Positions 4,441 through 19,495 of a stretch of 19,495 nt of DNA are shown in pieces. The stretch lies in NCBI GenBank assembly GCA_030039575.1, contig JASHVH010000229.1, positions 1 to 19,495 on the forward strand. The letters run 5' to 3'. Source of the DNA: Acidimicrobiales bacterium (GTDB lineage Bacteria; Actinomycetota; Acidimicrobiia; Acidimicrobiales; Palsa-688). The translations under genes and the position numbers were made by a program. Positions within the stretch are counted from its first letter, which is position 1. Each line of letters opens with the position of its first letter. The notes under the pieces were generated by a model. It ran no database searches. It had not been told where the DNA came from and saw only the letters and a list, made by a program, of their open reading frames with translations.

Positions 4441-4493
4441 TGAACCGGCCCAACGCGGGCCGCGCCCGTACCATCGTTGGCGGTGGCGTTCAT
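4437..4493 (-). other. Junction mini-ORF, 18 codons (MNATANDGTGAARVGPVQ)
   Basis: Its ATG overlaps the permease stop (ATGA) and its TGA overlaps the GTG start of the beta-hydroxyacid dehydrogenase (GTGA), so it bridges the gap exactly. The dehydrogenase start lacks an obvious ribosome binding site, which fits reinitiation after translating this ORF. It has no recognisable domain. Confidence 0.35.
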
Positions 4494-5527
4494 TCTGCTT
4501 TCAAGCGCAGACGGAGCTGGTCGATCCCGACCGCAATGATTAGAAGGGCCCCGGTCACGAACTCCTGCCAGAAGGAATTGATACTGAGAAGGACGATCCC
4601 GTCGTTGACGACCCCGATGACCAACACGGCCAAAAGCGTGCCGAGCATAGTCCCACGGCCACCGGCAAGGCTGGCCCCGCCCAGTACGACAGCGGTGATC
4701 ACGGAGAACTCGAGGCCGGTCGCGGCTGTAGCCGAGCCCTCGCCCGTCTGGGACGCGAGTAGTAGTCCGGTCAGCCCGCAGGCGAGACCGGAGAGGCAGA
4801 AGGTAAAGAAGATAACCCGCAGCGAGCGGATACCGGCGAGACGGGCCGCGGCGCGGTTGGCGCCTATCGCGTACAGCCAGCGACCGTACGTTGTCCGGCG
4901 CAGCGTGAACATCGTGAGGGCGACGACCGCAAGGAAAACCCACACCATCCACGGGATCTGAAGGAACGGCCGGCTGATCCCCAGCGTAGTGAAGCCGTTG
5001 AAGCCGACGGCCACGCCACCGGTCAAAATGTACGCCAACGCGTAGGTCATCTCCATCGTCCCGATCGTGGTTATCAACGGGTTGATCCCGATCACTGTCA
5101 CCAGGAACCCATTGAGGATGCCCACACCTAGACCGGTGCCGAGGGCGACGACGAGCGAGATGGCCAGCGGGTTGTGGTGAGTGTACGACTCCGCGAAAAC
5201 ACATGTCACCAGGGCGACATTTCCGCCTACCGACAGGTCGAACTGGCCCGAGATCAACAACATCGTCCCCGGGCACGCGACGAGACCGACGACCGAGGAG
5301 GCGATAAGTATGTTGGTGAAGTTAGAAGTATTGAAGAAATAAGGAGACTTGATGGTAAAGAAAATGACCAGAGCCGCCAGGACGACCAGCAAGGCGGCCG
5401 ATTCTGGTACGCGAGCCGCGACACTTCTTGCTCGCCCGCCCGGCAAGACGGTGGGGCCCGTCGAGGCTACGCCGGACGGCCCGGTTTGGCTTACGTCGAC
5501 TCCGGGCTCTACGTTCCTGATGTTCAC
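4490..5527 (-). CDS. Ribose-type sugar ABC transporter permease (RbsC family)
   Basis: This 345-residue protein is strongly hydrophobic, with about eight to ten predicted membrane segments after a polar N-terminus of roughly 40 residues. Family landmarks are FDLSVGG near residue 96, the cytoplasmic coupling loop YAIGANRAAARLAGI, and AVVLGGASLAGGRGT near residue 285. It ends with a hydrophobic helix and a short basic tail. It should form the inner-membrane channel of a carbohydrate importer together with the double ATPase immediately upstream, whose stop overlaps this ATG by four bases (ATGA). Only one permease gene is present, so a homodimer is expected as in RbsC. The sugar specificity comes from the binding protein and cannot be read here. 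Confidence 0.94.
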   Translation of the reverse strand: MNIRNVEPGVDVSQTGPSGVASTGPTVLPGGRARSVAARVPESAALLVVLAALVIFFTIKSPYFFNTSNFTNILIASSVVGLVACPGTMLLISGQFDLSVGGNVALVTCVFAESYTHHNPLAISLVVALGTGLGVGILNGFLVTVIGINPLITTIGTMEMTYALAYILTGGVAVGFNGFTTLGISRPFLQIPWMVWVFLAVVALTMFTLRRTTYGRWLYAIGANRAAARLAGIRSLRVIFFTFCLSGLACGLTGLLLASQTGEGSATAATGLEFSVITAVVLGGASLAGGRGTMLGTLLAVLVIGVVNDGIVLLSINSFWQEFVTGALLIIAVGIDQLRLRLKAE

Positions 5528-7014
5528 TCAACCGCCTCCGTGAGAAGCCGACTTGTGGTTATGGCGTCACCTTCGAGCTCGACGACTATGCGACCGCGCG
5601 CCATAACGATGGCACGGTCGGCCACCTGGACCACCTCCTCCTGGTCCGAGGTCGAGATGAGGACGCCCACACCGGCTGCAGCCAGAGCTCGCATCGAGTT
5701 ATAAATGTCCGCCCGTGCTCCCACATCGACCCCGCGGGTCGGCTCGATCATTACCAGGACCGGTGACCCGCGCTCCAGCCAGCGAGCCAGGACGACCTTT
5801 TGCTGGTTCCCGCCGGAGAGCGTTGCGATGGCCTGCAGAGGGTCATTGCGGGACCTTATCGACAGCTCCTGGCGCCAACGCCGGTAAGCGCTGGCCTCGG
5901 CGCGACGCGAGATGAACAACCTGAACCTTGCCATGCGCGGCCACGATGAGGCGGCTATGTTCTCGGCCACCGGGCGCACGGGGAAGATAGCCTCCCGCTT
6001 GCGGTCCGCCGGTACAAAGCCCACGCCGCGCCGGATGGAGCCGAACGGGCTCCGGGGTACGCCCCCGGCGCCGTTGATGGAGATGCTCCCTGACGTCAGC
6101 TTGCGCAACCCGAAGAGCGCCTCCGCCACCACCGTACCGCCGGACCCGAGCTTGCCGTAAAGGACGACGATCTCGCCCGGGTTCACGCTGAAACTGACGT
6201 CCTCGAACCCCGAGGAGGACGCGCTGTGCACCTCGAGCGCCGGCCGGGGACCGGGTTGCCACGTCGGCGCCGGAGGCCGGGAGACGTCAGAAGCCTCATG
6301 GCCCAACATGGCGGCCACGAGCGCTCGGCGGTCGAAGTCCTCGGTGGGCCCCTCGGCGGCCACCGACCCGTCGCGCAAGACCAGTACTCTGTCCGATATT
6401 GCTTTAACCTCGTCGAGGCGGTGGGTTATATAGATGATCGCCGCTCCACGATCTCGCAGGCGCCGCAGCAGGCCGAACAATTGCTCGACCTCATGCTGAG
6501 AAAGTGCGGCGCTCGGTTCGTCCAGGATCAAGACGCGGGTTTGGCCTGAGAGCGCCTTGGCGATCTCTATCACCTGCCGTTCCCCCACTCCAAGTGACCC
6601 CACAGAAGCGGAAAGGTCGAGTTCGATCCCCATTTCCTCGAGCACCGCGGCCGCGCGTTCGCGGACCGCCTTCCATTTCACCACTCCAAATCGCGCCGGC
6701 AACTGGCCCAGCGAAACGTTCTCCGCCACCGACAGCGTGGGCGCATCCGGGAACTCTTGGTGGATCATCCGCACCCCGCCTGCCCGGGCCGACGTGACCG
6801 ACAAGCGGGTAAAAGGCTCCCCACCGATAATAATCTCCCCCGCGTCAGGTGAGTAGTCCCCCGCGATTATCCTGACCAGAGTCGACTTCCCGGCCCCATT
6901 CTCCCCTAGCAGAGCGAGGATTGAGCGGGGGTTGGCGTCGAGGCCGACACCGTGCAGCACCTCGACGCCACCGAACGACTTACGAACCCCGCGAGCGCTC
7001 AGTAAAGCCGTCAT
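5524..7014 (-). CDS. Sugar ABC transporter ATP-binding protein with two ABC domains (RbsA/MglA family)
   Basis: This 496-residue protein is a tandem nucleotide-binding subunit typical of ribose-type importers. The first domain is intact: Walker A GENGAGKST (37-45), Q86, signature LGVGERQ (141-147), Walker B VLILDE (161-166) and switch H198. The second domain has a good signature, LSGGNQQ (399-405). Its Walker A is degenerate (GKLGSGGT, 287-294, no Lys or Arg at the K position) and its Walker B reads VLVMIE (419-424), with Ile where Asp is expected. Degenerate second domains are usual in this family; loss in both Walker motifs is more extreme. The ATG at 7014 lies 36 nt after the binding-protein gene, with a G-rich tract about 12 nt upstream and a 4-codon mini-ORF ending on the start codon. 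It drives uptake through the coupled permease. Confidence 0.94.
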   Translation of the reverse strand: MTALLSARGVRKSFGGVEVLHGVGLDANPRSILALLGENGAGKSTLVRIIAGDYSPDAGEIIIGGEPFTRLSVTSARAGGVRMIHQEFPDAPTLSVAENVSLGQLPARFGVVKWKAVRERAAAVLEEMGIELDLSASVGSLGVGERQVIEIAKALSGQTRVLILDEPSAALSQHEVEQLFGLLRRLRDRGAAIIYITHRLDEVKAISDRVLVLRDGSVAAEGPTEDFDRRALVAAMLGHEASDVSRPPAPTWQPGPRPALEVHSASSSGFEDVSFSVNPGEIVVLYGKLGSGGTVVAEALFGLRKLTSGSISINGAGGVPRSPFGSIRRGVGFVPADRKREAIFPVRPVAENIAASSWPRMARFRLFISRRAEASAYRRWRQELSIRSRNDPLQAIATLSGGNQQKVVLARWLERGSPVLVMIEPTRGVDVGARADIYNSMRALAAAGVGVLISTSDQEEVVQVADRAIVMARGRIVVELEGDAITTSRLLTEAVE

Positions 7015-7025
7015 AAGAGGCTCAT
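7011..7025 (-). other. Junction mini-ORF, 4 codons (MSLL)
   Basis: A G-rich tract immediately precedes this ATG, and its TGA overlaps the ATG of the transporter ATPase. The tract is about 12 nt from the ATPase start, rather far for a direct ribosome binding site. The ORF is too short to judge alone and is listed because similar ORFs occupy the other gaps of this operon. Confidence 0.2.
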
Positions 7026-7050
7026 ACCCCCCCTGAAGATTATTGCTGCT

Positions 7051-8013
7051 TCACTTGCAGGTGCCGGGGAACACCGAATCGATGTTAGCTGCAGTGAGAG
7101 GCGCGGCCTGGACGTATTCGAATGCCGGGACCGACTTGCCGTGGATCAGGTTCAGCAGGGCAGGGACGATAAGCTTCCCGTAGTCCTGGGGGTTGTAGTT
7201 TACATCGCCGACCCAGTTCTTGAACGGTGTGGTGTGACAGATGTACGGGTAAGCGTCAGAACTGGCGCCCTGAGCGACGATATAGAGATCGTTGAGCCGG
7301 CCCACCGACTGGGCGGCCTTGACAGCCCCGATCGCGACATCGTCGTTGATGGCAAGGACCAGGATGCGAGTGGCTCCGGGGAAACGACTGAGCGTGTCGG
7401 TGAACGGGGCGATCGTGTCCGCCGTCGTGTACGTCGTCGGCTCCACCTTCGTAACCTTCAGCCCGGGGCATTCGGCCAGGGTACCCGCGATCTCACCGTC
7501 TTCCCGCTGGATGACACCGGGATTAATTGGAGAGTTGATGGACATCAACGCGTTGACTTTGCAGTCGAAATGTGACTTGGCGTACGTGCCCAGCATCACG
7601 CCACCAACATGGCCCACAGTATAGTTGCTGACCCCCACATAGACCTTCTCGCACGGGGGCTGTTCGATGTCCACCGCCACCACCGGGACTTTGGGCCCAG
7701 CGGCGCATACGCGCGGCGCCGCGGCCTGGTCCGACTGGTAATCGGCGATCCCTTGCACTCCCTCGCTCTTGAACGCCTGCACGCACGAAATGGCTTGAGG
7801 GACGGACAGGTTCGAGTCGCACGTGACGACCTGTACACCGTCCTTCTTCGCCACCGCTTCTACCCCCTGCTCGACGGTTACGGCGTAAGGGATGCTGTCG
7901 GCGAGGTTGACAAAGCCAATCTTGATCGGTGCGGCTACCGCAGCCCCCGGGGCGGTGACTGCAAGCAGGCCCACAGTTGACATGATCACCAGGATTCTTG
8001 GCAATATTTTCAT
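7051..8013 (-). CDS. Periplasmic/secreted sugar-binding protein of a ribose-type ABC importer
   Basis: From ATG 8013 the protein has 320 residues. It begins with a classical signal peptide: a short basic n-region (MKILPR), a hydrophobic core to about residue 20, and likely cleavage after AVA or VAA near residues 27-28. There is no lipobox cysteine, so it should be released or periplasmic rather than a lipoprotein. The mature part starts with IKIGFVNLADSIPYAV, typical of RbsB-type type-I periplasmic binding proteins, and NDDVAIGAVKAAQSVG (223-238) is the conserved second-lobe helix. Eight cysteines (65, 77, 103, 121, 151, 182, 259, 319) lie in the exported part, an even number compatible with disulfides. 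The upstream gap of about 136 nt is the largest within the operon, common before binding-protein genes that need high expression. Purine-rich AAGGAG and AAAGGG tracts precede the start. Confidence 0.92.
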   Translation of the reverse strand: MKILPRILVIMSTVGLLAVTAPGAAVAAPIKIGFVNLADSIPYAVTVEQGVEAVAKKDGVQVVTCDSNLSVPQAISCVQAFKSEGVQGIADYQSDQAAAPRVCAAGPKVPVVAVDIEQPPCEKVYVGVSNYTVGHVGGVMLGTYAKSHFDCKVNALMSINSPINPGVIQREDGEIAGTLAECPGLKVTKVEPTTYTTADTIAPFTDTLSRFPGATRILVLAINDDVAIGAVKAAQSVGRLNDLYIVAQGASSDAYPYICHTTPFKNWVGDVNYNPQDYGKLIVPALLNLIHGKSVPAFEYVQAAPLTAANIDSVFPGTCK

Positions 8014-8069
8014 GTACGACCCTTTCTCCTTCTCACGAAGGGAGCTTTCTCGTGTTGATGCCATTTCAT
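8010..8069 (-). other. Junction mini-ORF, 19 codons (MKWHQHEKAPFVRRRKGRT), in the leader of the binding-protein gene
   Basis: This ORF ends with a TGA that overlaps the ATG of the sugar-binding-protein gene (ATGA). The product would be short and very basic. It lies in the 136-nt gap (8014-8149) between the GH88-like gene and the binding protein. That gap is A/C-rich compared with its neighbours and otherwise shows only a weak 5-bp hairpin at 8112-8129. The alternative in-frame extension of the binding protein (ATG near 8067) would add 18 charged residues ahead of the signal peptide and is less likely. Confidence 0.3.
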
Positions 8070-8149
8070 CCGTTGAGTTTGCCTTGAGTTGGTTTTGCTT
8101 TTCCTGACGATAGGTCCGTGCCAAGACCTGAACTTCAAACGACCATCTT

Positions 8150-9271
8150 TCAGACCTCCTCGCTGTTGAGGTGTCCTTCCATGACGGAGAGCGCTTCGAG
8201 CAAGAAGTAGTCGCCCCAAATGAGCTCGTTCGCGGTTGCCAACCCGATCCGGCGGTTGTAGCAGCCATCGGTCAAGATGCCGGCAGGACGAGCGTCCGCC
8301 GCGTCGAGCCCGGTAAGGTGGTGCTCAATCAGCGCGTCTGCCATGGCCTCGGCGGTCTCCCTGTAAACGGCGCCACGTGTGCCGGCCACCGGGCTCAACT
8401 TCAGGAGCGAGGCGGCTGCTATGGCCGTACCGGACGTGTCCCGCGGTCCATCTGGGTCGTCGAAGTCCCAGGAGGCGACGGCGGTCTTCGGCAGGTGCTC
8501 GCACCACCAGTCGCTGACACCCATGGCGACGTCGAGGAACTCGTCGGCTCCGGCGCACACGGCCTGGGAAAAACCGAGCATGGCCCAGGCTTGAGCGCGC
8601 GTCCAAGTACTGTCGTCACGCACTCCCTTGTGGGTGTAGCGACGCAGGACTTTTCCCGAGCGCGGGTCGAACGAGGCCGACTGGCACACAGAGTTATCCG
8701 CCCGCACGCACAGCTCGATGTGGCGCCGGGCGTTGGTCTCGGCCAACTCCGACAGCTCTGGCTGCCCAGCGCGCCGCGCTGCAAATATGAGCAACGGCGT
8801 CCCTCCCGGGACCCCGTCGATATTCGCCTCTCCCCTGCCGACATCCGAGGCCTCTTCGGCCTCGGAACCCAGTGGTATGAGATTTGCAGACCTGTTGAAC
8901 AACGTGGCCAGGGAACGACCTCCGGAGACAGCGATCTCGGCGGCAATTTCGTCGTCGTGTAGCACTGCACCCAGCGCGGCCCCGTACCAGAAAAGGAACC
9001 CTCGAAAGACCGTCTCGGAGGCGGTGCGGGGGCGCAGGGCCTGTGCCCAATCACGGCCGAGCTTGGCGTAACGCCGATCACCGGTAACGCGGGCAGCCAA
9101 CCAGAGTTCCCCGACCCAGAAGCCTCCTGTCCAGTCACCCGTCGGGGTGCGCGTCCAGGCGCCCGTGCCCGGGTCGGCATAATGGGGGAACCCGGCCGTG
9201 GGCGCGTCCGCCGCCGTCTGGTCTATACGATCGACGATCAGCTCGAGAGCGCGAGCCCGGTGGTCAGACAT
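8150..9271 (-). CDS. GH88/unsaturated glucuronyl hydrolase-like protein, atypical active site
   Basis: From ATG 9271 the protein has 373 residues, close to the GH88 norm. Landmarks of the alpha/alpha-barrel family are visible in order: GDWTGGFWVGELW (45-57), ANIDGVPGG (149-157) with D152 matching the catalytic acid/base Asp, H214 in YTHKG, WTRAQAWAMLG (223-233), DTSGTAIAAASLLKL (278-292) and ELIWGDYFLLEAL (349-361). The HDLGF-type motif holding the second catalytic Asp is replaced by FRGFLF (89-94). No signal peptide is present, so it acts in the cytoplasm, as expected for enzymes cleaving imported unsaturated uronides. The start was chosen because it overlaps the dehydratase stop by eight bases; upstream codons overlap that gene. 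It may be a hydrolase on unusual uronides or a non-canonical relative. Family placement is good, activity uncertain. Confidence 0.8.
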   Translation of the reverse strand: MSDHRARALELIVDRIDQTAADAPTAGFPHYADPGTGAWTRTPTGDWTGGFWVGELWLAARVTGDRRYAKLGRDWAQALRPRTASETVFRGFLFWYGAALGAVLHDDEIAAEIAVSGGRSLATLFNRSANLIPLGSEAEEASDVGRGEANIDGVPGGTPLLIFAARRAGQPELSELAETNARRHIELCVRADNSVCQSASFDPRSGKVLRRYTHKGVRDDSTWTRAQAWAMLGFSQAVCAGADEFLDVAMGVSDWWCEHLPKTAVASWDFDDPDGPRDTSGTAIAAASLLKLSPVAGTRGAVYRETAEAMADALIEHHLTGLDAADARPAGILTDGCYNRRIGLATANELIWGDYFLLEALSVMEGHLNSEEV

Positions 9272-11021
9272 TTGCGGCACCGTAGCCGTCTCCACCTTTG
9301 CCGTGGCGGCGGCCGCCGGCCTCGGGCTCTCCGGCTGGCGGGCTCGAACGGGGACCGTCGCGGGCCCCAAGTACCGCTCCCTGTGTTAGCGATTGGACCA
9401 ATTGCGCGTATTGTCCCAGCCACCCGATTTCGGTGTGCGCAGGTGGCTGCCACGAGGAGCGACGGCGGCTCAACTCGTCAGGGGTTACTTGGAGGTCGAC
9501 CGCGCGTTTGTCGAGGTCGATTATAATTTCGTCCTCTTCTTGGACAAACGCCAATGGTCCCCCCTCCGCCGCTTCAGGCATTACCTGGCCCACGGTGAGG
9601 CCCCTATTGAGCCCGGACAATTCCCCGTCCGTCACCACGGCCACATCTGCGGCCAGACCCGCCCCGTTGAGCGCGGCCACAAAGCTGGCGGCGAAAACCG
9701 TGCCTGGCCCTCCCTTGGGCCCAAGGCCTGGCATAACGACTACGTCCCCTTTCAGGATCCCGCCGTCGCCCAGCGCGGCGATCGCGTCGGCTTCCGAAGC
9801 GAACACCTTGGCTGGCCCCTTGAACATGACGCGATCACGCGGGACGGCAGCTAGCTTCACCAGAGCCCCCGCCGGCGCCAGGCTCCCGCGTATGAGGCAA
9901 AGGCCCGGCCGGCTGTCGAGCGGAGCGGTCAGGGGCCGGATGACGTCCTCATCGCTGACTTTGGCAGCCGCCAGAAGTTCAGCCACAGTGCACCCTCCGA
10001 CTGTCAAAACTTCGCCATATAGTTGGCTCTCGAGCTGTTTCATGAGGCCCAAGGTGCCGCCCGCCCGTTCCAGGTCTTCGGTGTGGTGAGGGCCGTTCGG
10101 ACGAACCCCGCATAGCAACGGGATGCTCTGGGCGCGGCGCTCGAGCATCTCGAACACGTCGATATCCAGGCCGCATTCGACGGCAATCGCCTGCAAATGG
10201 CGGACGGAGTTGATCGAGCCACCGAGCGCTATGTCAACTGCGACGGCGTTTTCAAAGGCCTGTGTGGTCATGATCTGTCGCGGGCGAAGGTCGTCCGAAA
10301 TCATCTCGACTATTCGATAGCCGGCCAGTTTTGCCGTCTCCTCCATCCGGGACGAGCCGGCCCGCACCGGCGCGGACCCCGGGATGGACATCCCGAGCGC
10401 CTCACACAGGACGTGCATCGTGTTGGCTGTGCCGAGGCCTGCGCAGACACCCGGCCCAACGATGGCCTTGTCCGCCATGGCGGCTAGGTCCGCCACCGCC
10501 ATCTGGCCGGCGGCAACGGAACCCACCGCTTCGTAGACATCATCGATATCAACCGGACGGCCTCGAAAACTGCCAAAGGACTGGTAGCCGCCGATGACGA
10601 CCAGCGTCGGGACGTTCAGACGGCCGGCGGCCATCAAATGGGCGGGCGTGGTCTTGTCGCAGGAGGCAAGACATATCATCCCATCCAACAGTGCCCCTTC
10701 GACCGCCACCTCGATGTCGTTGACGATCAGGTCGCGCGATGGCATGATGTAGCGCGCTTGCTTCCCGGCACTGGTGACAAAGTCGCTTGGTGCCGCGGTG
10801 CGGATCTCGAACGCGAGGCCGCCGGCATCAGCGATGGCTTGCTTCACTAACCCGGCCAGGTCATCAAGGTGCGTGAAGCACACGGACAACTCAGAGGAGG
10901 AGTTCACCAGCGCGATCTTGGGCTTGTCCGTGTCGGCTTCGGTGATACCCAGGGCTGCCCACTGGGCGCGGCGCACGGCCCAACTTGTGCTACCTGGTTC
11001 CAGGTTGCTGCGTAGCGTCAC
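9264..11021 (-). CDS. IlvD/Edd-family dehydratase, likely a sugar-acid dehydratase
   Basis: This 585-residue protein belongs to the dihydroxyacid/6-phosphogluconate/aldonic-acid dehydratase family. Three cluster cysteines are in place: C48 in ELSVCFTHL, C121 in LASCDKTTPAH and C193 in GVCAGLGTANTM. D122 (Mg ligand) and K123 (carbamylated Lys in the family) follow C121. GELSG near the C-terminus (TDGELSGLNRG) carries the catalytic Ser, followed by PEAAEGGPLAFV. SELS-C-FTHL instead of the PCN motif of IlvD points to a pentonate/hexonate-type dehydratase, not the branched-chain amino acid enzyme. The product would be a 2-keto-3-deoxy acid, the substrate class of the downstream aldolase. A Gly/Arg/Pro-rich tail of about 35 residues follows the conserved end and overlaps the next gene by 8 nt. 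The GTG start overlaps the regulator stop (GTGA). Confidence 0.92.
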   Translation of the reverse strand: MTLRSNLEPGSTSWAVRRAQWAALGITEADTDKPKIALVNSSSELSVCFTHLDDLAGLVKQAIADAGGLAFEIRTAAPSDFVTSAGKQARYIMPSRDLIVNDIEVAVEGALLDGMICLASCDKTTPAHLMAAGRLNVPTLVVIGGYQSFGSFRGRPVDIDDVYEAVGSVAAGQMAVADLAAMADKAIVGPGVCAGLGTANTMHVLCEALGMSIPGSAPVRAGSSRMEETAKLAGYRIVEMISDDLRPRQIMTTQAFENAVAVDIALGGSINSVRHLQAIAVECGLDIDVFEMLERRAQSIPLLCGVRPNGPHHTEDLERAGGTLGLMKQLESQLYGEVLTVGGCTVAELLAAAKVSDEDVIRPLTAPLDSRPGLCLIRGSLAPAGALVKLAAVPRDRVMFKGPAKVFASEADAIAALGDGGILKGDVVVMPGLGPKGGPGTVFAASFVAALNGAGLAADVAVVTDGELSGLNRGLTVGQVMPEAAEGGPLAFVQEEDEIIIDLDKRAVDLQVTPDELSRRRSSWQPPAHTEIGWLGQYAQLVQSLTQGAVLGARDGPRSSPPAGEPEAGGRRHGKGGDGYGAANV

Positions 11022-11854
11022 GACTTATTTGCCTCCCCTGACTTGGCGCTACGCCGGCGCCCCTTGGATCTTTGAGGTCGCGGTAGCTGGCTGGCACGGG
11101 TGCGCCCGTCATTTCCACCCCCCTCGGCCGGTGCCGGTTGACCGAGTGAGCGGTCAGCGTGGTCGATCATGAGCTCAACCGCAAGGTCGCCGTTCCCTGC
11201 CGCCATGGCCGCCAGGATCGCCTTATGCTGTTCGTGAAGTGCCTCTCGATCGCCCGGAGCAATGCCGAGCTCGCTCCACGCGTCGATCCAGAGTTCGTGG
11301 ACGAGTTGCTGAAAGCGTGCGAGAAGTGGATTACCACACTCACGCCCGAGGGCCGCCTCGAAGCGAAGGTCGAGGCTCCCCTCTTCACGCTCCGCGGCGC
11401 GTATTTCCCTTTCGGCGCGGGCCAGAAGTGAGGCGACCCGGGAAAGGTTCGCGTCGGGATTTGCGGCCACAAGTTGTACCACCTTTACCTCGATCGCCGA
11501 ACGCACATCGACCAATTGCCGAAGGAAGGACTCGTCGACGGCCGCGCTGCCTTTGAACTGGGCCTCAAAGGAGGTCCCATTGGGGTTGGCGATAAAGGTC
11601 CCCGCGTTGCGCCGAATTTCGACCTTGCCCAGCGCCTCGAGCGAGCGCAGCGCTTCGCGAACGGACACCCGGCTGACCTGGAATTGCTCCGCTAGCTCTC
11701 GCTCGGAGCCGAGCCGGTCACCTCGCTGCAAGTCGGTCTGGGCGATGTACTCCTCGAGTTGCCCCAACAACGACCGGAACACGTCGACCTTCTTGATCGG
11801 GATGATCTTGAACGGAGGTCGCGGCCGCGTCGGAGTGATAAGTGGACTGTACAC
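11018..11854 (-). CDS. GntR-family transcriptional regulator, FadR (FCD-domain) subfamily
   Basis: From GTG 11854 the protein has 278 residues. A winged helix-turn-helix spans about 24-90, with GSERELAEQFQVSRVSVREALRSLEALG as the DNA-binding core and FIANPNG as the wing. The C-terminal FCD domain (about 108-238) has the expected ligand pattern D162, H210 (EQHKAI) and H232 (DHADRSL), but the usual FHxAL histidine is Glu (FEAAL, E166). A basic, probably disordered tail (239-278, RSKGRRRS) extends past the domain. Such regulators bind sugar acids or keto acids and repress adjacent catabolic genes. The stop overlaps the dehydratase start by GTGA, so it heads the operon. The promoter found upstream would place transcription start near 11839, inside this frame; GTG 11782 would then be the start, still leaving an almost complete DNA-binding domain. 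Confidence 0.92.
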   Translation of the reverse strand: MYSPLITPTRPRPPFKIIPIKKVDVFRSLLGQLEEYIAQTDLQRGDRLGSERELAEQFQVSRVSVREALRSLEALGKVEIRRNAGTFIANPNGTSFEAQFKGSAAVDESFLRQLVDVRSAIEVKVVQLVAANPDANLSRVASLLARAEREIRAAEREEGSLDLRFEAALGRECGNPLLARFQQLVHELWIDAWSELGIAPGDREALHEQHKAILAAMAAGNGDLAVELMIDHADRSLGQPAPAEGGGNDGRTRASQLPRPQRSKGRRRSAKSGEANKS

Positions 11855-12018: not shown

Positions 12019-12621
12019 TCAGATCTCCGTGCCCGGGTAGCCGTCCGCGTCGATGGCGAACTCGCCGCCGGCGTCCATGATGACGTCGAACAGGTACTGG
12101 CCGGAGGACCGCTCGCAATAACAGAGATAAGACAGCGCACCGTCGACGTCGTCCCGGACCAAGCACGCGACCAGCCCGGCGAACAAGGTCCGGAAGACGG
12201 CACCGTTCGGAGCGTTTCGCGCTGACAGGTCGACCGGGCAAAGTTTGGACAAGACAGCGCGCGCTTGCTCGCCGGTGAGACGCCCGAGCGCGTACCCGTG
12301 CGTGAGATCGGTCACGGTAGTGAAGCTCGGTCCGCCAACGGCGTCAAACTGAGCGCGCATGGCAAGCTCGCGGCCCGAGGGCCCCAAGGCCAGCCACACA
12401 CCGGGACCTTCGCCAATTACTAGGTACCCCGGACCGTCGCGCTCCGCCCGGCCGAAAGGAACACCCATCACGTCCTCGGTCTGCGAGCGGCTCCGGACCT
12501 GTACCTTCGCCAGCGGGCTAAGGTCCGCCAGCCGCAAGGTGGCCGACGAGCGACGGGCGCTCACCTCCCAATTGCCGCGCCTTGTTACCGGCGCGGCCGG
12601 GCGGACCGGGCTGCGGGCCAC
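12019..12621 (-). CDS. soxG: Sarcosine oxidase gamma subunit family; probable N-methylglutamate dehydrogenase subunit D
   Basis: This approximately 200-residue protein matches the SoxG family by ordered motifs: DLSPLAKVQVR (33-43), TVTDLTHGYALGRLTG (about 102-117), KLCPVDL (126-132) and ERSSGQYLFDVIMDAG (170-185). The gamma subunit is the structural GcvT-like partner in heterotetrameric sarcosine oxidase (its N-methylglutamate dehydrogenase counterpart is MgdD). GTG 12621 was chosen because AGGAGG lies 5 nt upstream. GTG 12660 is the alternative and would overlap the alpha-subunit stop by eight bases. It is the last gene of the right-hand operon, followed by a 164-nt gap. The gmaS-like and glutamate-synthase-like genes upstream favour the Mgd reading over sarcosine oxidase. 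Confidence 0.88.
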   Translation of the reverse strand: MARSPVRPAAPVTRRGNWEVSARRSSATLRLADLSPLAKVQVRSRSQTEDVMGVPFGRAERDGPGYLVIGEGPGVWLALGPSGRELAMRAQFDAVGGPSFTTVTDLTHGYALGRLTGEQARAVLSKLCPVDLSARNAPNGAVFRTLFAGLVACLVRDDVDGALSYLCYCERSSGQYLFDVIMDAGGEFAIDADGYPGTEI

Positions 12622-12652
12622 CGGTCCCTCCTCTTCTTGATGGGAGTATTTG

Positions 12653-15472
12653 TCAGCCACGTAGCCGGGCCCCTTCGGGGTCAAAGTGGGCCAATTGCGG
12701 CATCACGGTGGCGGCGACGTCATTTCCGTCGGGCAAATGGACCGTTACGACGCTCCCGGGCGAAGCCAGCTCGGCTATGACGAAACCAAGGCAGACCGAG
12801 CGCCCTAGCGTCGGTGACATGCGGCTGGAGGTGACCCTGCCCGCTATCACCCTGTCATCGGTAAGGATCTGGCTACCCTCGGCTGGCACGACACCGGGGT
12901 CAACCGGCTGCAAGCCGACGAGTTTCGAACCGGGGCCCTTCTCGTGCTCAAAAACGAGCTCCGGCTTTCCAATGAAGTCCGGCTTGTCCAGCTTGACCAG
13001 CCACTCGAGGCCGGCGGAAAAGGCCTCGGTCAGGCCGTCCGTGTCCTGAGCCACGATCATATGGCCTTTCTCCAAGCGCATGATCCGTTGGGCTTCTACG
13101 CCAAAGGCCCCTACGCCGAGGTCGCCACCGGCGGCAAGCAACCTTTCCCAAACGTACAGGCCGAACCCCGCAGGTACATGGATCTCGTAACTGAGCTCTC
13201 CGGTGAACCCGATCCGCCACATATAACAATCGGGCACCCCGGCCACCGACCCGGTGCGGACGTGCATGTACGGAAATGCTTCAGGCGACAAGTCGACGTC
13301 GCTCACCAATCGGCCCAGCAGGTGACGCGAACTCGGTCCCGCTATGTTTATGCTGGCATAGGCCGTAGTCATTTGGGTGACGTGCACCAGCCAGTCCGGG
13401 TAGCTGCATTGGAGCCAGTTCTCCAGCCACTCCCACACCGCCCCTGCTCCCGAAGATGTCGTGGACATCAGGTAGTGGTCCTCGCCCAGCCGGCCGGTCA
13501 CGCCATCGTCAAGGACGACACCATCCTCCGCGCACATCACCCCATAACGGACCGAGCCGACCTCGAGCTTGGACCACTTGTTCACATATAGCAAGTTCAG
13601 GAGCTTGGGTACGTCCGGGCCTCTCAAGTCCAGCTTGCCAAGCGGGGTAACGTCAATAATCCCAACCTTTTCCCGGACATTGCGGACCTCCGCCCCGGGG
13701 TCCCCGTAGTGCTCCGGACGCACCCACTGGCCGGCGACTAGAGGCACAGCCCCACGCGCCTCGTGCCAGGGCTGCATGGGTGAGTACCGGACTGGGGCAT
13801 GCAGGCGTCCCGCCAGCGCGCCGAGGCTTATCGGGACATAGGGTGGCCGCCAGACCGTCGTCCCGGTCTCGGCGATGGTGCGGCCGGTGGCTTCAGCCAA
13901 GACAGCGACAGTGTTGACAGTCTCGAGCTTGCCTTGGCCGGGGCCCATGGTGGCCGTGGTGTAGCGCTTGGCCAGCTCGGCCGAGTCGTAACCCTCCTGT
14001 GCGGCCGAGAAGATGTCCTTCGACGAGACATCCTCGGAGAAGTCCACAAAGCCATGCGTACTGGCCCGGAAAAGCGCCGGATGAGGGCGGGGCACGAGCT
14101 CGGGGGCACCTGTCTCGTTTCCGCCGTGGGCTCGAGCGGCCGCCGCCGCACCCACAGCCCGGCCATGCGATACCAGCTCGTCGGCTGAACCGTCGCCCAC
14201 GATCCCGCCTGTGGCCATCACATTTGGTTGCGCGGACCGGCCCGGGACGAACCGCGCCGCCCTCTCGTCGTAGCGGGGGATGTCCCCGGACATGTTGAGC
14301 AGCGACGTGGGAGCGGTCCACCCGACCGAAGTGACCAGCAGGTCGCACGCAAGTTCCGTCCCGCCGTCAAGCTCGACTCCTGAGACCTGGCCCCGGCCAA
14401 TAGCTCGGCGTACGCCCTCACCTCGGCGGGCATCCACGACCCTCAGCACTTCGGTCCCGATGTCGCCCAGATCCTCGGCGGCGGCGATACCGTCGTCGTT
14501 CCCCGTGAACACGACCGCCCGCTGCCCCGGCTTCACGGCGTAGAGGTTGACCAGTCGTCTTGCCGCCGTTGACAGCATGACCCCCGGCAGGTCGTTCCCC
14601 TCGAAGACGTACGGGCGCTCAATGAGCCCTGGAGCGACGACCAACATCTTGGCCCTCGCTTTTATCAGGCGCTCGCCGGCGTTGGGCAGTTCCCGCTGCA
14701 GGACACCGACCCAGTTGTCGTCGTAACGGCCAGTGACGACGGAGTTCAGCAGGACCTCTACCCCGTCTTGTTCGGCCACCGCCCGGCGGAGGTCGGCCAG
14801 AAGTGCCAGTTCGCCCGCCCGTCCGTAACGGAGATGACCGCCCAGTTCGTACTCTTCCTCGACGAGCATTACCGACGCCCCCGCCTCGGCGGCCGCCAAG
14901 GCGGCTGCCATACCGGCCGGGCCACCGCCGGCCACCAGTACGTCGGGGTGCGCATAGCGTTTGTCGTACTCGCCCCCGGCCGAACTGGCCGGCAGCCGGC
15001 CACCCGGAGCGAAGTGTTGCAGCACGCGTTCGTACGCGGGCCACAGCCGCTGCGGTTTGATGAAAGTCTTGTAATAAAAACCCGCACTGAGGAACCGGGG
15101 GAAGGCGCCGTTCACCGCCGCTATGTCCCAGGCCAAAGAGGGCCAGACGTTCTGAGCCTTAACCGTCATGCCACCTCGGAGCCGGCGGTGCGCAGCTCGC
15201 ACGTTCGGCTCGTCGTCAACCTGGACGATGCAGTTCGGGTCGTGGAAATTGGCCGTCAATATCCCTCGTGGCCGGTGGTACTTGAAACTGCGTGAAAAAA
15301 ACTTCTCGCCCGACGCGGCCAGAGCCGACACGATCGTGTCGCCCTGAAATCCCGAGTAGCGCCGACCGTTCCAGGTGAACCCAAGCGACGTCGCCCGGTC
15401 GATCAGCTCGCCGGGACGCCGCCCGGCCCGCATATCCCTGGTCGAGTTACGAGCGCGGGCAATAGTTACCAT
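12653..15472 (-). CDS. soxA: Sarcosine oxidase alpha subunit family; probable N-methylglutamate dehydrogenase subunit C
   Basis: This 939-residue protein has the SoxA architecture. It has an N-terminal ferredoxin-like fold domain (about 25-110, with GFQGDTIVSALAASG and the FKYHRPRG motif). A Rossmann nucleotide-binding region starts with VLVAGGGPAGMAAALAAAEAG (178-198), a second dinucleotide-domain strand is AVVFTGNDDG, and ATGGIVGDG is the ATG motif. A GcvT-type aminomethyltransferase domain spans about 560-935 and includes GVEAQRIMRLEKGHMI. The GcvT domain transfers the one-carbon unit from the oxidised N-methyl group to tetrahydrofolate. The ferredoxin-like part lacks the four clustered cysteines of a 2Fe-2S site, as in other SoxA proteins. 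ATG 15472 is preferred; a TTG at 15481 overlaps the delta-subunit stop and would add three residues. Confidence 0.92.
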   Translation of the reverse strand: MVTIARARNSTRDMRAGRRPGELIDRATSLGFTWNGRRYSGFQGDTIVSALAASGEKFFSRSFKYHRPRGILTANFHDPNCIVQVDDEPNVRAAHRRLRGGMTVKAQNVWPSLAWDIAAVNGAFPRFLSAGFYYKTFIKPQRLWPAYERVLQHFAPGGRLPASSAGGEYDKRYAHPDVLVAGGGPAGMAAALAAAEAGASVMLVEEEYELGGHLRYGRAGELALLADLRRAVAEQDGVEVLLNSVVTGRYDDNWVGVLQRELPNAGERLIKARAKMLVVAPGLIERPYVFEGNDLPGVMLSTAARRLVNLYAVKPGQRAVVFTGNDDGIAAAEDLGDIGTEVLRVVDARRGEGVRRAIGRGQVSGVELDGGTELACDLLVTSVGWTAPTSLLNMSGDIPRYDERAARFVPGRSAQPNVMATGGIVGDGSADELVSHGRAVGAAAAARAHGGNETGAPELVPRPHPALFRASTHGFVDFSEDVSSKDIFSAAQEGYDSAELAKRYTTATMGPGQGKLETVNTVAVLAEATGRTIAETGTTVWRPPYVPISLGALAGRLHAPVRYSPMQPWHEARGAVPLVAGQWVRPEHYGDPGAEVRNVREKVGIIDVTPLGKLDLRGPDVPKLLNLLYVNKWSKLEVGSVRYGVMCAEDGVVLDDGVTGRLGEDHYLMSTTSSGAGAVWEWLENWLQCSYPDWLVHVTQMTTAYASINIAGPSSRHLLGRLVSDVDLSPEAFPYMHVRTGSVAGVPDCYMWRIGFTGELSYEIHVPAGFGLYVWERLLAAGGDLGVGAFGVEAQRIMRLEKGHMIVAQDTDGLTEAFSAGLEWLVKLDKPDFIGKPELVFEHEKGPGSKLVGLQPVDPGVVPAEGSQILTDDRVIAGRVTSSRMSPTLGRSVCLGFVIAELASPGSVVTVHLPDGNDVAATVMPQLAHFDPEGARLRG

Positions 15473-15477
15473 TCGCC

Positions 15478-15765
15478 TCAACCTTCCTCGGGGCTCGCCG
15501 AGGGGGGCGCCTCACTGCCCACTGAACGCGTCGTCCGGACCTCGTTGGTCACCGTGTTCCGTTCAGCTACGAAAAACCGCGCGCACCCGAAACGATGGAA
15601 CCAGGTCTCTGTGGTCCATCCAGCCCGGTTCCGCCGGATATATAGGTAGGCCCTCCACTCGGCGGGGCCAATGTCCTGGACCGGTGGCCTCGCACCCCCC
15701 TCTCCCCAGTGGGCAAACTCGTCACTGTTGCGGGGGCCACAGTAGGGGCAAGGTATGAGGATCAA
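15478..15765 (-). CDS. soxD: Sarcosine oxidase delta subunit family; probable N-methylglutamate dehydrogenase subunit B
   Basis: This 95-residue protein has the small zinc-binding fold of SoxD. It opens with MILIPCPYCGPRNSDEF, giving C6 and C9. TWFHRFGCARFFVAERNT supplies H57 and C61, completing the Cys3-His zinc site known in the family. ERNTVTNEV is also a typical delta-subunit stretch. The start is a TTG with GGAGG five bases upstream, which decides it. A 30-nt gap separates it from the beta-subunit gene, and its stop overlaps a possible TTG start of the alpha subunit. Confidence 0.9.
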   Translation of the reverse strand: MILIPCPYCGPRNSDEFAHWGEGGARPPVQDIGPAEWRAYLYIRRNRAGWTTETWFHRFGCARFFVAERNTVTNEVRTTRSVGSEAPPSASPEEG

Positions 15766-15795
15766 CGACGCCTCCAGGCCGCCGTCAGTCCCGTC

Positions 15796-17142
15796 TCAGT
15801 GCCCAACTGCCGCCGCCCCTCGTTCGCCGACCAGGCGGCCCTCGAAGAAGCGGGCCAGGTCGAACGCCGCGATGAGCTCGGGCGTCTTGCCGGTGGCCAC
15901 GAGCTCAGCCATCGACTCGCCCGCGGCCGGCCCCGCCTTGAACCCGTAGGTGCCCCACCCGACGTCGACCAGGAACCCCTCCACTTCGGTCACCCCCATG
16001 ATCGGCGAGAAATCGGGGGTGATGTCGCAGAGCCCCGCCCACTGACGCAGGACGCGCAGCTTGGCGATCCCGGGCATGAGCTCGAGGACATGGCTGGCCA
16101 GCTCCTCTGTGAACTCGAGCGAGCCTCTCATCGAGTATGACGGGTAAGGGTCAGTGCTGGCCCCGAAAACCAGCTCCCCGCGGTCGGTCTGGCTCACGTA
16201 GACGTGCAAGCTACCCGATACCACCACCGCCTGCAGGAACATCTTCACCGGTTCCGTAACAGCCGCCTGCAGCGGGTGGGTCACGATTGGGAGCGACACT
16301 CCCGCCATTTCCGCTACGAGGCTCGCCCATCCCGCCGTGCAGTTGACCACCACCGGCGCCGAAACTTTACCCTTGCTCGTATTTACGCCCCTCACCCGGC
16401 CCCGGTCCAACGAGATGGCGAGTACCTCAGTGTTCTGATGGATCTCGACCCCCAAGGCGTCGGCGGCGCGCGCGTACCCCCAATTGACGGCGTCATGGCG
16501 GATGATCCCGCCGGGAGGGTGGTAGAGGGCGCCCAGGACCGGGTATCGGGTGCCCGAGGACACGTCCATTTGGGGGACCAGCGCCTTCACGTCGGCCGGC
16601 GAAATGACCTCTGACTGGACGCCTTCGAGCTTGTTGACCTCGGCTCGCCATCGCATCGTCCGCAGCGAGCTGTCGTTATGAGCCAGTGTCAGGTGCCCGC
16701 GTTGGGCGAACATGACATTGAAGTTGAGCTCAGCGGCGAGGGAACGGTACAGCCCAACGGAGCGGTCGTAAAACCGGACTCCTTCCGGCGTCAGGTAATT
16801 CGAACGGATAATGGCGGTGTTGCGGCCCGAACCACCGCCGCCAATGTACCCCTTGTCCAGGACAGCAACCTGCCGGGCACCGTGGTTACGAGCCAGGTAA
16901 TAGGCCGTTGCCAAACCATGGACCCCGGCGCCGATCACCACGACGTCGTATTGGGGCTTTAGTTCCGTCGTGCGCCACGCACGTGGCCAATCTTGCTGGA
17001 AGAGGCCGTGCCCGAGCAGGCCCATGGCGGAGTAGCGTCCCTTCGCCGCACTTTGGGCGTACCGTCCTGCCCATTGGCCTGCCCATTGGCCTGCCCGTTG
17101 GCGGACGTCCCGCCACCCATTGAGCTGACCAGGTGCTCGCAT
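15796..17142 (-). CDS. soxB: Sarcosine oxidase beta subunit family; probable N-methylglutamate dehydrogenase subunit A
   Basis: This 448-residue protein is an FAD-dependent oxidoreductase of the DAO/SoxB family. VVVIGAGVHGLATAYYLA (67-84) is the FAD-binding GxGxxG loop, followed by VLDKGYIGGGGSGRNTAIIRSNY. H216 in GGIIRHDAVNWGYARAAD sits in the stretch where the beta subunit of heterotetrameric sarcosine oxidase attaches FMN covalently, inferred from family knowledge. The C-terminal WAGLCDITPDFSPIMG and GWGTYGFKAGPAAGE are the FAD-proximal signature. The region RYSAMGLLGHG near residue 36 resembles the usual SoxB N-terminus, so about 30 residues precede it here, including a short AGQW repeat. 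The subunit carries the amine-oxidation site. It lies about 33 nt after the glutamine-synthetase-like gene. Confidence 0.92.
   Translation of the reverse strand: MRAPGQLNGWRDVRQRAGQWAGQWAGRYAQSAAKGRYSAMGLLGHGLFQQDWPRAWRTTELKPQYDVVVIGAGVHGLATAYYLARNHGARQVAVLDKGYIGGGGSGRNTAIIRSNYLTPEGVRFYDRSVGLYRSLAAELNFNVMFAQRGHLTLAHNDSSLRTMRWRAEVNKLEGVQSEVISPADVKALVPQMDVSSGTRYPVLGALYHPPGGIIRHDAVNWGYARAADALGVEIHQNTEVLAISLDRGRVRGVNTSKGKVSAPVVVNCTAGWASLVAEMAGVSLPIVTHPLQAAVTEPVKMFLQAVVVSGSLHVYVSQTDRGELVFGASTDPYPSYSMRGSLEFTEELASHVLELMPGIAKLRVLRQWAGLCDITPDFSPIMGVTEVEGFLVDVGWGTYGFKAGPAAGESMAELVATGKTPELIAAFDLARFFEGRLVGERGAAAVGH
17066..17101. repeat. Three tandem 12-bp repeats in the 5' end of the beta-subunit gene
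   Basis: The unit CCTGCCCATTGG occurs twice exactly (17066-17077 and 17078-17089) and a third time with one change (17090-17101). On the coding strand it encodes repeated Ala-Gly-Gln-Trp within the N-terminal extension. Because the period is a multiple of three, copy-number change would keep the reading frame. Confidence 0.8.
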
Positions 17143-17175
17143 ATTCTCTCGCCGCCTCCGTGGACCTTTGCTCGA

Positions 17176-18534
17176 TCAGAACAGGGTCAGGTAGCGGTCG
17201 ACCTCGGCTTCGCTCACCACGGCGTGCCAAGCGAGGAACTCCCGGCGCTTCACTGACGCGTAGTAGTCGATATAGTCGCCGTCGGCCGTCTTGCCGAGCG
17301 CCTGGCGGAGGATGTCGTTACCCGTCAGGGCTTCGATGGCGTGCAGGAGGGTCGGCGGCAACGACCGGATCCCCCGCCTGGCGATCTCCTCAGACGGCAG
17401 CTCGTACAGATTATCCCGGTTGGGCTCACCAGGGTCGGCCCGGCGGTCGATGCCATCGAGCCCGGCCGCCAGTTGGGCCGCCATCGCCAGGTAGGGGTTA
17501 GCGGCGCCGTCGCAGGCGCGGTTCTCGACGCTGCCTCCACCTGAAACACGAAGCATCTGCGTCCTGTTATTGCCCCCGTAGGTCACGTAAGCGGGTGCCC
17601 ATGTCGCACCCGAAAGGGGGGCGCCTACACCCATGCGTTTGTAGGAGTTCACGCTGGGACAGGTGATCGCGGCCAGGGAACTCGCATGGTCCAGTAGCCC
17701 GCCAATGAAGTGGTATGCCGTCTCCGACAGCCCGAGACCGCGGGGGTCAGCGGAGTCGACGAACAGCTCCGCACCGGTGGCTTCGTCCCAGAGGCTCGAG
17801 TGCATATGGAGGCCGTTGCCTGTCAGGTGGGTAAACGGCTTGGGCATGAACGTGGCCGTCATACCCGCTTGCTGGGCCAGCGTGTGCACCATATAACGGA
17901 AGAAGACGACCCGGTCGGCCGTGGTCAACGCGTCGGCGTGGCGGAAGTTCTGCTCGAACTGCCCGTTGGCATCCTCGTGGTCGTTCGCATAGTTGGCCCA
18001 ACCGAACTGGTTCATGTACTTGGAGACCGTGGTGACGTGGTTGTACATCCGGGTAAGCGCCTTGGCGTCGTAGCAAGGCAATTCAAGGGAGTCGACCTCG
18101 TCGGCGATAACCAGCCGGCCCTCCGGGGTGCGCCGGAGGAGGAAGTACTCGGCCTCACAGCCCACTTGGTACACAAAGCCACGGGACTTGGCCACCTCCA
18201 GTACTTGCTTCAAGATCAGCCTGGGCGAGTAAGGCCAAGGGGCGCCTTCGACATGGACATCGCACTGCACCACCGCCAGCCCAGGCTGCCATGGGGCGAG
18301 TGTGTACGACGCGGGGTCGGGCACGGCGACCAGGTCTGGGTCAGCCGGGCTTTGGCCTATGGCGCCGGCGGCGAACCCGGCAAAGCCCGCCCCGCCCGAC
18401 ATTAAGACGTCGAGCGCTTCAGCAGGCACGAGCTTGGCACAGGGCTTGCCGTGCATGTCGACGAACATGGCGAAGAAGAACTCAACCTTGTCCTTCTCGG
18501 CCTTCGACCTGAGCTCGTCAGTGCCTTGCGACAT
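17176..18534 (-). CDS. gmaS: GlnT/GmaS-type glutamine synthetase, probable gamma-glutamylmethylamide synthetase
   Basis: From ATG 18534 the protein has 452 residues, the size of GlnT/GmaS proteins. Active-site motifs are in order: GCEAEYFLL with E127 and E129, NDHEDANGQFEQNF with E187 and E194, TGNGLHMHSSLW with H243, NSYKRM with R299, GGNNRTQMLRV with R324, and SVENRACDGAANPYLA with E337 and R339. GAGFAGFAAGAIGQ (48-61), ANDHEDANGQFE and a C-terminus ending DRYLTLF are typical of the GlnT/GmaS branch, not of housekeeping GlnA. GmaS ligates methylamine to glutamate using ATP. ATG 18534 was chosen over a GTG at 18558 because a purine-rich AGAGGA precedes it by six bases. Its place between a glutamate-synthase-like gene and mgd/sox-like genes is the main reason for the GmaS call; a plain GlnT cannot be excluded from sequence. 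Confidence 0.85.
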   Translation of the reverse strand: MSQGTDELRSKAEKDKVEFFFAMFVDMHGKPCAKLVPAEALDVLMSGGAGFAGFAAGAIGQSPADPDLVAVPDPASYTLAPWQPGLAVVQCDVHVEGAPWPYSPRLILKQVLEVAKSRGFVYQVGCEAEYFLLRRTPEGRLVIADEVDSLELPCYDAKALTRMYNHVTTVSKYMNQFGWANYANDHEDANGQFEQNFRHADALTTADRVVFFRYMVHTLAQQAGMTATFMPKPFTHLTGNGLHMHSSLWDEATGAELFVDSADPRGLGLSETAYHFIGGLLDHASSLAAITCPSVNSYKRMGVGAPLSGATWAPAYVTYGGNNRTQMLRVSGGGSVENRACDGAANPYLAMAAQLAAGLDGIDRRADPGEPNRDNLYELPSEEIARRGIRSLPPTLLHAIEALTGNDILRQALGKTADGDYIDYYASVKRREFLAWHAVVSEAEVDRYLTLF

Positions 18535-18564
18535 CCCCCATCCTCTCTCTCCTCGCACGCGCCC

Positions 18565-19494
18565 CTAGCCTGGCGGCTCTCCCGGGATCCAGTCAGTCCC
18601 GGCCAGAGGTACTTTCGCCATGGCCGCCGCCTCGATCGTGAGGGCGACAAGATCCTCAGGTTCAAGGTTGTGGACGTTGGACTTCCCGCAAGCCCTGGCG
18701 AGAGCCGTCAGCTCCATCGTCATCGCCCTGAGGTAATTAGCTACCCAGCGTGCCCCCACCGACGGGTCGAGCCGCGACTCGAGGTCAGGGTCCTGGGTCG
18801 TCACGCCGACGGGGCACAGGCCGGTATGACAGTGGTGGCAGAACCCTGGCGCCGTCCCCAGGCTCGTGTACTCAGCTGTGGCATCGTGGTCTTTTCCGTC
18901 CTGCCGGTAAGAAGGCTTATTGCACCCGAGAGCGACCATAGCCGCTACGCCTATCGAGACGGCCGTCGCACCGAGCGCCAAGGCCTTGGCCACATCTGCC
19001 CCGGAACGGATCCCACCAGAAACGATCAGTTGGACCTCATGGTGCTTCCCGATCTCCCGGAGCGCCTCGGCCGCCAGGCGCACGGCGGCCAACGTGGGGA
19101 TGCCGGCATGCTCGATAAAGGCGGTGGGCGTGGCCCCGGTACCTCCTTGCATACCGTCTACGACGACGACGTCGGCGCCCGCTGCCACCGCCAGCTTTAC
19201 GTCGTTCGCCACCCTGGTCGCGCCAAGCTTCACGTAAACCGGCTTTTCCCAGCCCGTTGCCTCCCGAAGTTCCTCGATCTTTATACGCAGGTCGTCCGGA
19301 CCAGTCCAGTCCGGGTGGCGTGAAGCCGAGCGCTGGTCGACCCCCGGTGGGAGCGTGCGCATGGCTGCAACTCGGTTGCTCACCTTCTGGCCGAGCAATA
19401 GCCCACCCCCGCCCGGCTTCGCGCCCTGGCCGATGACCACTTCGATGGCGTCCGATTGGCGAAGGTGCTCGGGGTTGAAACCGTACCGGGATGG
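18565..19494 (-). CDS. mgsC: FMN-binding glutamate synthase-family protein, probable N-methylglutamate synthase subunit C (N-terminus cut by window edge)
   Basis: The frame is open to the right edge, giving the last 309 residues of a larger protein. It contains the central FMN/synthase domain of glutamate synthases: RYGFNPEHL then AIEVVIGQGAKPGGGG, KPVYVKLG, VVVVDGMQGGTGA, LIVSGGIRSGADVAKALALGA and IGVAAMVALGC. A cysteine cluster FCHHCHTGLCPVGVTTQ follows and fits the iron-sulfur ligand region. MgsC converts gamma-glutamylmethylamide to N-methylglutamate together with the amidotransferase MgsA and MgsB. A stand-alone protein with no long C-terminal domain agrees with MgsC or archaeal-type GltB rather than full-length GltB. 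The stop lies about 30 nt before the gmaS-like start, so they are probably one operon. Start and upstream genes are outside the window. Confidence 0.88.
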   Translation of the reverse strand, partial: PSRYGFNPEHLRQSDAIEVVIGQGAKPGGGGLLLGQKVSNRVAAMRTLPPGVDQRSASRHPDWTGPDDLRIKIEELREATGWEKPVYVKLGATRVANDVKLAVAAGADVVVVDGMQGGTGATPTAFIEHAGIPTLAAVRLAAEALREIGKHHEVQLIVSGGIRSGADVAKALALGATAVSIGVAAMVALGCNKPSYRQDGKDHDATAEYTSLGTAPGFCHHCHTGLCPVGVTTQDPDLESRLDPSVGARWVANYLRAMTMELTALARACGKSNVHNLEPEDLVALTIEAAAMAKVPLAGTDWIPGEPPG

Positions 19495-19495
19495 G

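Follow-up and report, generated by a model that had tools for sequence, protein, structure and literature searches.

A probable N-methylglutamate pathway operon, divided between two contigs, in an Acidimicrobiales genome

Introduction

The genes of the N-methylglutamate (NMG) pathway are well characterized in Proteobacteria, and the pathway was proposed in 2015 for two actinobacteria, Mycobacterium sp. 141 and 155, in which, judging by the locus numbers given, gma-mgsABC and mgdABCD form separate clusters (PMC5023230). The gene set of the NMG operon of Methyloversatilis and Methylobacterium (gmaS, mgsABC, mgdABCD) also appears among the genes scored in a survey of the Binatota (PMC8262859). 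Two other systems are built from related proteins. One is heterotetrameric sarcosine oxidase, SoxBDAG, represented by the solved structures 1vrq and 2gag. The other is the operon msmeg_6259-6263 of M. smegmatis, in which, as described in PMC4222082, the same kinds of protein (glnT, GATase, FwdC, glutamate synthase) stand behind amt1 and are expressed under nitrogen starvation in a GlnR-dependent manner.

Here we describe a locus that we read as an NMG pathway operon, mgsA-mgsB-mgsC-gmaS-mgdA-mgdB-mgdC-mgdD, split by the assembly over two contigs. We put the probability of this reading at about 0.88, a figure that refers to the kind of pathway and that overlaps with a variant of the same chemistry acting upon another amine. 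The reactions, methylamine as substrate, and co-transcription are carried over from the characterized proteobacterial pathway. On that analogy, GmaS would form gamma-glutamylmethylamide from methylamine, glutamate, and ATP; MgsABC, a split glutamate-synthase-like enzyme, would convert this amide to N-methylglutamate; and MgdABCD would oxidize N-methylglutamate, yielding glutamate together with a C1 unit, either tetrahydrofolate-bound or as free formaldehyde. The net outcome would be that methylamine gives up its nitrogen and perhaps yields energy.

The probable operon and its inferred continuation on a second contig

The window, by which we mean the whole stretch of DNA analyzed, is the entire contig C399 (19,495 bases). 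The MAG to which it belongs comprises 565 contigs totalling 3.83 Mb and is 68% complete. A first-pass annotation had placed a glutamate-synthase-type gene, a GlnT/GmaS-type gene, and a beta-delta-alpha-gamma oxidase set together on one strand with small gaps, and this is indeed the arrangement: all six genes lie on the minus strand within 12019-19494, separated, in the direction of transcription from mgsC to mgdD, by 6, 33, 30, -4, and -32 bases. With their predicted identities they are:

18565..19494, minus strand: mgsC, FMN/Fe-S subunit of N-methylglutamate synthase; 309 aa in the window, the 5' part lying past the contig end; Glu_synthase PF01645, 268.5 bits
17176..18558, minus strand: gmaS, gamma-glutamylmethylamide synthetase; 460 aa; TIGR03105 "type III", 595.2 bits (cut-off 469.6)
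15796..17142, minus strand: mgdA, SoxB-like beta subunit, FAD/FMN oxidoreductase; 448 aa; PF01266, 250.8 bits; TIGR01373, 500.7
15478..15765, minus strand: mgdB, SoxD-like delta subunit; 95 aa; PF04267, 91.4 bits
12653..15481, minus strand: mgdC, SoxA-like alpha subunit; 942 aa; TIGR01372, 857.5; domains 2Fe-2S, Rossmann, A3, and folate-binding GcvT (PF13510, PF07992, PF17806, PF01571, PF08669)
12019..12684, minus strand: mgdD, SoxG-like gamma subunit; longest frame 221 aa, its actual start uncertain; PF04268, 22.2 bits (cut-off 21); TIGR01375, 57.9 bits

Because absence of mgsA and mgsB beyond position 19495 had been named as an outcome that would speak against the pathway, it carries weight that both genes are present in this MAG, where they lie on a contig overlapping the window. 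Bases 1-259 of this contig, C527 (L003), match window positions 19236-19494 at 93.8% identity by blastn, and a GXGXG profile search of the MAG returned a large glutamate synthase and a weaker match on C527 (41.4 bits). The contig carries:

C527 1-721: 5' part of mgsC, probably continuing the window gene through the 19236-19494 overlap
C527 721-1539 (longest frame): mgsB, GXGXG
C527 1392-2294: mgsA, class II amidotransferase, GATase_6/7; a TTG start, then Cys
C527 2485-3237: GntR-like gene, divergent, before mgsA

Between them, window and C527 supply the three parts of an N-methylglutamate synthase, mgsC in the former and mgsA and mgsB on the latter. We infer the physical link between the contigs from the 259-base overlap. 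Its identity of 93.8% rather than 100% likely reflects strain variation, a second copy being the alternative; the rate of mismatch suggests that two strain versions meet at the assembly break.

The GntR-like gene is a candidate regulator. Its homologues, at 57% identity in L124 and 34-36% in L010, L012, L016, L018, and L042, adjoin mgsA or an MgdA-type gene in L010, L012, L018, and L124, and are found at a distance of 1.3 kb in L042 and of 6 kb in L016.

Downstream of the operon, after 164 bases and on the same strand, a GntR-FCD gene and a sugar-acid-like set begin, which show no obvious connection with the pathway. This region (794-11854, minus strand) encodes the GntR-FCD regulator, an IlvD/Edd dehydratase, a protein that matches no Pfam family but is GH88-like in look, a sugar-type ABC transporter, hydroxyisobutyrate-type and 2-hydroxyacid dehydrogenases, an HpcH/HpaI aldolase, and an isochorismatase; it probably serves sugar-acid catabolism.

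GmaS and its amine pocket

The solved proteins closest to the window GmaS are the methylamine ligases RhGmaS (7cql) and 9qur, at 397 and 392 bits, the next being a glutamine synthetase at 237 bits. In a tree of 84 rows, the window protein falls inside a 14-row actinobacterial clade (100/100). Three of the four further synthetases of the genome lie apart from it, the remaining one (C521, L130) being below the length/score filter. The clade connects with RhGmaS at 100/97, but the program flags this link as one between long branches; the branch of RhGmaS is long in this tree, and 9qur groups with proteobacterial rows. A tree had been proposed as the arbiter of the protein's family, and it groups the protein with GmaS, not with GlnA-type rows, in agreement with the TIGR03105 score, the matches to solved structures, and the residues described next.

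PMC7948447 names 21 residues of RhGmaS, from Rhodovulum sp. 12E13, as serving ATP, glutamate, metal, methylamine, or catalysis. The window GmaS is identical at 18 of these, including Asp177, Glu186, and Arg312, and has Ala, Phe, and His in place of Gln175, Trp189, and Tyr191. Six of the seven methylamine-pocket residues are kept, the exception being Gln175, a position occupied by Ala in 14/14 actinobacterial GmaS rows, as opposed to Gln in 57/58 other GmaS rows. The genome's other synthetases (four rows, three genes) lack Asp177 and Asn188 in every row and Lys30 in three. Since mutation of pocket residues reduced GmaS activity (PMC7948447), the fixed Gln175-to-Ala exchange may bear on substrate choice; judged from the alignment, we regard it as a lead and not a result.

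Oxidase subunits

A 51-row tree of beta subunits contains a branch, supported at 100/100, that parts the sarcosine oxidases from the window protein, which stands with 38 further rows of MgdA type. On the sarcosine-oxidase side stand the two solved PDB chains together with eight of nine rows from loci without gmaS/mgs genes; 36 of the 38 MgdA-type rows come from loci that do have gmaS or mgs genes, with L121 and L124 showing none within their stretch. L114, a sarcosine-oxidase-type row, forms a very long branch at the root, outside both groups. The tree left out 12 of 61 matches, below 40% identity, as well as L125 (same locus as L011), and L129, which in this tree and in that of GmaS is the window itself, is excluded from the stated counts. 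The beta subunit thus falls where the first-pass annotation had predicted, with MgdA-type proteins and away from the two solved sarcosine oxidases. Comparison of 39 MgdA-type with 10 sarcosine-oxidase-type rows gives 23 class-specific positions, and the window has the MgdA-type letter at 21. The His of an "RHD" motif in the window protein aligns with the "KHD" His of 1vrq and 2gag, presumably the site of covalent FMN attachment.

The alpha subunit is set apart by the NCBI model TIGR01372 (cut-off 1164): the window scores 857.5, Planosporangium 866.0, and a Methyloversatilis MAG 844.1, while three sarcosine-oxidase-type alphas exceed the cut-off at 1216.6, 1260.2, and 1437.8. The first-pass annotation had expected automatic annotation to call these genes sarcosine oxidase and so hide the pathway; in this it was too pessimistic, as the alpha model already separates the two. 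The remaining window subunits also score below the NCBI Sox cut-offs (beta 500.7/529.45, gamma 57.9/143.95, delta 89.5/116.5), though the beta cut-off by itself is not decisive, since the MgdA-type beta of L010 passes it at 532.3. We conclude that the window set is of the MgdABCD kind, distinct from SoxBDAG, for beta by the tree, for alpha by model score, and for delta and gamma by low model scores only.

Sarcosine-oxidase-type copies were also found in the relatives: five of 13 actinobacterial genomes with mgsC of the window's type carry an extra copy, at 47-48% identity, in addition to the MgdA homologue. No gmaS/mgs match lies in the 11-15 kb around these five, nor around four more from two proteobacteria; nine of the ten sarcosine-oxidase-type matches were viewed with flanks, the exception being L103 of G018. 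The neighbors scanned include a serine dehydratase and a formyl-transferase with an ACT domain in L116 and such a formyl-transferase in L119, the rest being of other kinds. The sarcosine-oxidase-like cluster of L114 (G012), with its very divergent beta, adjoins a gene for an MTTB-family methyltransferase.

Linkage and co-occurrence in relatives

The loci compared here are the best 80 of 313 mgsC relatives in a genome-collection scan; they were fetched by mgsC, and several are on short contigs. Among these best 80, matches to mgsA, mgsB, and gmaS share the locus with mgsC in 74, and 35 have within the mgsC locus a beta subunit whose identity is 50% or higher, frequencies that argue against chance linkage.

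Co-occurrence was followed, regardless of linkage, in 61 genomes, namely the window's own and 60 relatives. An MgdA-type beta is found in 7/8 genomes with an mgsC match vs 2/53 without (Fisher p = 6e-7; 4e-6 without the window's own genome), four of the seven co-occurring genomes being of one genus. The distribution is patchy, with an mgsC match in eight genomes, an MgdA-type gene in nine, and both in seven. Four of the eight have mgsC of the window's type (G000, G033, G035, G051), three of them with the beta subunit; G044 and G050 have only a diverged type 2, and G067 and G077 a 67% copy. Window-type mgsC occurs without an MgdA match at 1e-60 in G001 and G033, the reverse holds for G066 and G074, and the congeners G021 and G022 have neither mgsC nor beta subunit at 1e-60. 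In G033, a member of the same family, mgsC (L205:5339-6580) reads with one internal TGA, through either decay or assembly error.

Within the best 80, 13 loci that are actinobacterial by record title carry the window's type of mgsC (L005-L013, L016-L018, L042); L057, labelled Acidimicrobiia, lies outside the actinobacterial rpoB clade and is not counted, and G009 and G051, whose contigs are identical, represent a single genome that enters each of the two sets, the 13 and the 61, one time. Twelve of these 13 genomes hold an MgdA homologue at 71-76% identity, within the mgsC locus in only eight and on another contig in G002 and G011. The order mgsA-mgsB-mgsC-gmaS-soxB recurs in three of the loci (L010, L012, L042), continued by soxDAG in L010 and L012; in L042 the contig ends inside soxB. 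L010 comes from the cultured Planosporangium flavigriseum TBRC 198; Pseudonocardia asaccharolytica DSM 44247 is a further carrier in culture. Four others (L007, L009, L011, L017) show mgsABC-soxBDA with gmaS inverted, L018 has soxBDA inverted, and the other five have no MgdA-type gene in the locus.

Elsewhere among the best 80, 23 Burkholderia-type or Aquabacterium-type loci (e.g. L059:1720-2907, L019:3820-5091) have no MgdA-type gene and carry a SoxB-like FAD oxidase of 25-28% identity some kb from gmaS-mgsABC.

Relation to the proteobacterial operon and taxonomic range

The window encodes the same protein families as the operon of Methyloversatilis and Methylobacterium. Identity to the Methyloversatilis MAG L063 is 75% for MgsC, 57% for MgdA, 45% for GmaS, 41% for MgdC, and 33% for MgdB; the order there is mgdA-B-C, gmaS, mgsA-B-C, as opposed to mgsABC-gmaS-mgdABCD in the window, and L063 yields no separate mgdD match. 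In all three trees (beta, GmaS, MgsC), the window stands apart from these organisms in an actinobacterial clade, which for MgsC numbers 17 rows (100/98; the tree left out L064 to L084 except L073, L078, and L083). Window MgsC is 73-76% identical to proteobacterial MgsC, below the cut-off of >81% that PMC5023228 gives for mgsC within Proteobacteria; from these figures we take the shortfall to be the distance between phyla. The same 73-76% clearly exceeds the 55-58% shared with the type-2 paralogue described below.

The MAG was placed through its relatives, as Acidimicrobiia-like: rpoB was not found in it, nor in G001, G004, or G016, and G014 was not included in the search. Seven genomes related to it at the level of genus, family, or order fall in one rpoB clade (100/100) with G007, titled Acidimicrobiaceae, and with G009 and G012, titled Actinomycetes, apart from Pseudonocardia and Planosporangium. 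The first-pass annotation had seen here an extension of the pathway to actinobacteria; the phylum was, however, already covered by Mycobacterium sp. 141/155 in 2015 (PMC5023230), which share pathway and phylum with the window and which we liken to it by description, not sequence. We found no open-licence paper joining Acidimicrobi- with methylamine and methylglutamate, and so, as far as that literature goes, the range may be new at class level.

Diverged cassettes and plasmid variants

A second type of cassette, gmaS2-mgsA2-mgsB2-mgsC2, occurs in actinobacterial loci (L122:9242-13743, L123:5907-10343, L194, L195, L008, L012, L042, L013, L199/L200), incomplete in several of these stretches. Its MgsC2 copies are 91-96% identical to that of L122 and 55-58% to window MgsC; GmaS2 is ~30% identical to window GmaS, keeps 7/7 RhGmaS pocket residues in four of four rows, and, in the L122 copy, scores under the TIGR03105 cut-off. 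The cassette adjoins MgdABCD-type genes in L122, L123, L194, and L195; in L123 and L194 a gene for an XRE-cupin regulator accompanies it. One might suppose that several diverged GmaS-MgsABC cassettes of Actinomycetota (type 1 with its Gln-to-Ala exchange, type 2 evolving slowly) feed one MgdABCD-type demethylase, each for different amines; we consider this doubtful, but if true, the "N-methylglutamate pathway" of this phylum would comprise a small group of related pathways for alkylamines.

In Candidatus Mycobacterium methanotrophicum and in a Streptomyces (L172:8599-14093; L173:6510-13122), plasmids carry glnT, amidotransferase, mgsB-like, and mgsC-like genes with one FAD oxidoreductase replacing MgdABCD, followed in Streptomyces by a gene for mycothiol-dependent formaldehyde dehydrogenase; going by gene content, this appears to be a one-subunit path by which N-methylglutamate yields formaldehyde. 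A match on a Pseudonocardia plasmid (H60, L171:15001-15507; 72% identity), near transposase and integrase genes, proved to be a fragment of an MgdA-type beta gene, covering residues 28-195 only.

Discussion

Gene content and order, family placement, conserved residues, and co-occurrence lead us to the NMG operon that the first-pass annotation had proposed, with mgsA and mgsB in the MAG and the GmaS and beta trees among its supports. Were the oxidase instead an ordinary SoxBDAG that by chance lies beside GlnT and a glutamate-synthase-like protein, one would have the identical domain make-up, the unbroken alignment of beta residues 55-448 with 1vrq and 2gag, and the folate-binding domain of alpha; the separation of the clades in the beta tree, an alpha as far under the cut-off as Methyloversatilis MgdC, the five actinobacterial genomes that carry both types, their Sox-type copies lacking gmaS/mgs in the stretch viewed, and the co-occurrence with mgsC in relatives make this very improbable. 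An ammonium module for nitrogen starvation, with no methylamine pathway, appears equally remote. The M. smegmatis operon (msmeg_6260-6263 being known to us by description) lends that idea substance, as does the ammonium transporter gene ~3 kb from the type-2 cassette in L200. The window genes, however, are of type 1, with GmaS over the TIGR03105 cut-off vs 320.7, below it, for the one type-2 copy tested; they run on into MgdABCD, which would be superfluous in such a module; and the 19 window frames scanned include no ammonium transporter.

Somewhat less improbable, though still unlikely, is that the same chemistry handles another primary amine, such as ethylamine, by way of a gamma-glutamylalkylamide and an N-alkylglutamate. 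The smaller residue fixed at position 175 throughout the actinobacterial clade is what one might expect of such a change; against it stand the six remaining pocket residues, all conserved, an oxidase of the demethylating kind, and the folate domain of alpha, which fits a C1 product.

As for the fate of that C1 unit in an NMG pathway, FolD is present in the MAG. Neither a mycothiol-dependent formaldehyde dehydrogenase (best 111.2 of 512.9) nor a hexulose-phosphate synthase of the RuMP route (best 26.7 of 200) scores over its cut-off in this 68% complete MAG, whose gaps make such absences weak evidence. With no hexulose-phosphate synthase over cut-off, growth on methylamine carbon through RuMP looks less likely than use of methylamine as a nitrogen source.

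The locus offers one actinobacterial NMG operon with every part in a single gene order. The MgsC clade, the MgdA clade, and the alpha-model score serve as markers by which such operons can be told from sarcosine oxidase as well as diverged GlnT-type cassettes, and with these markers, methylamine users outside Proteobacteria could be counted.
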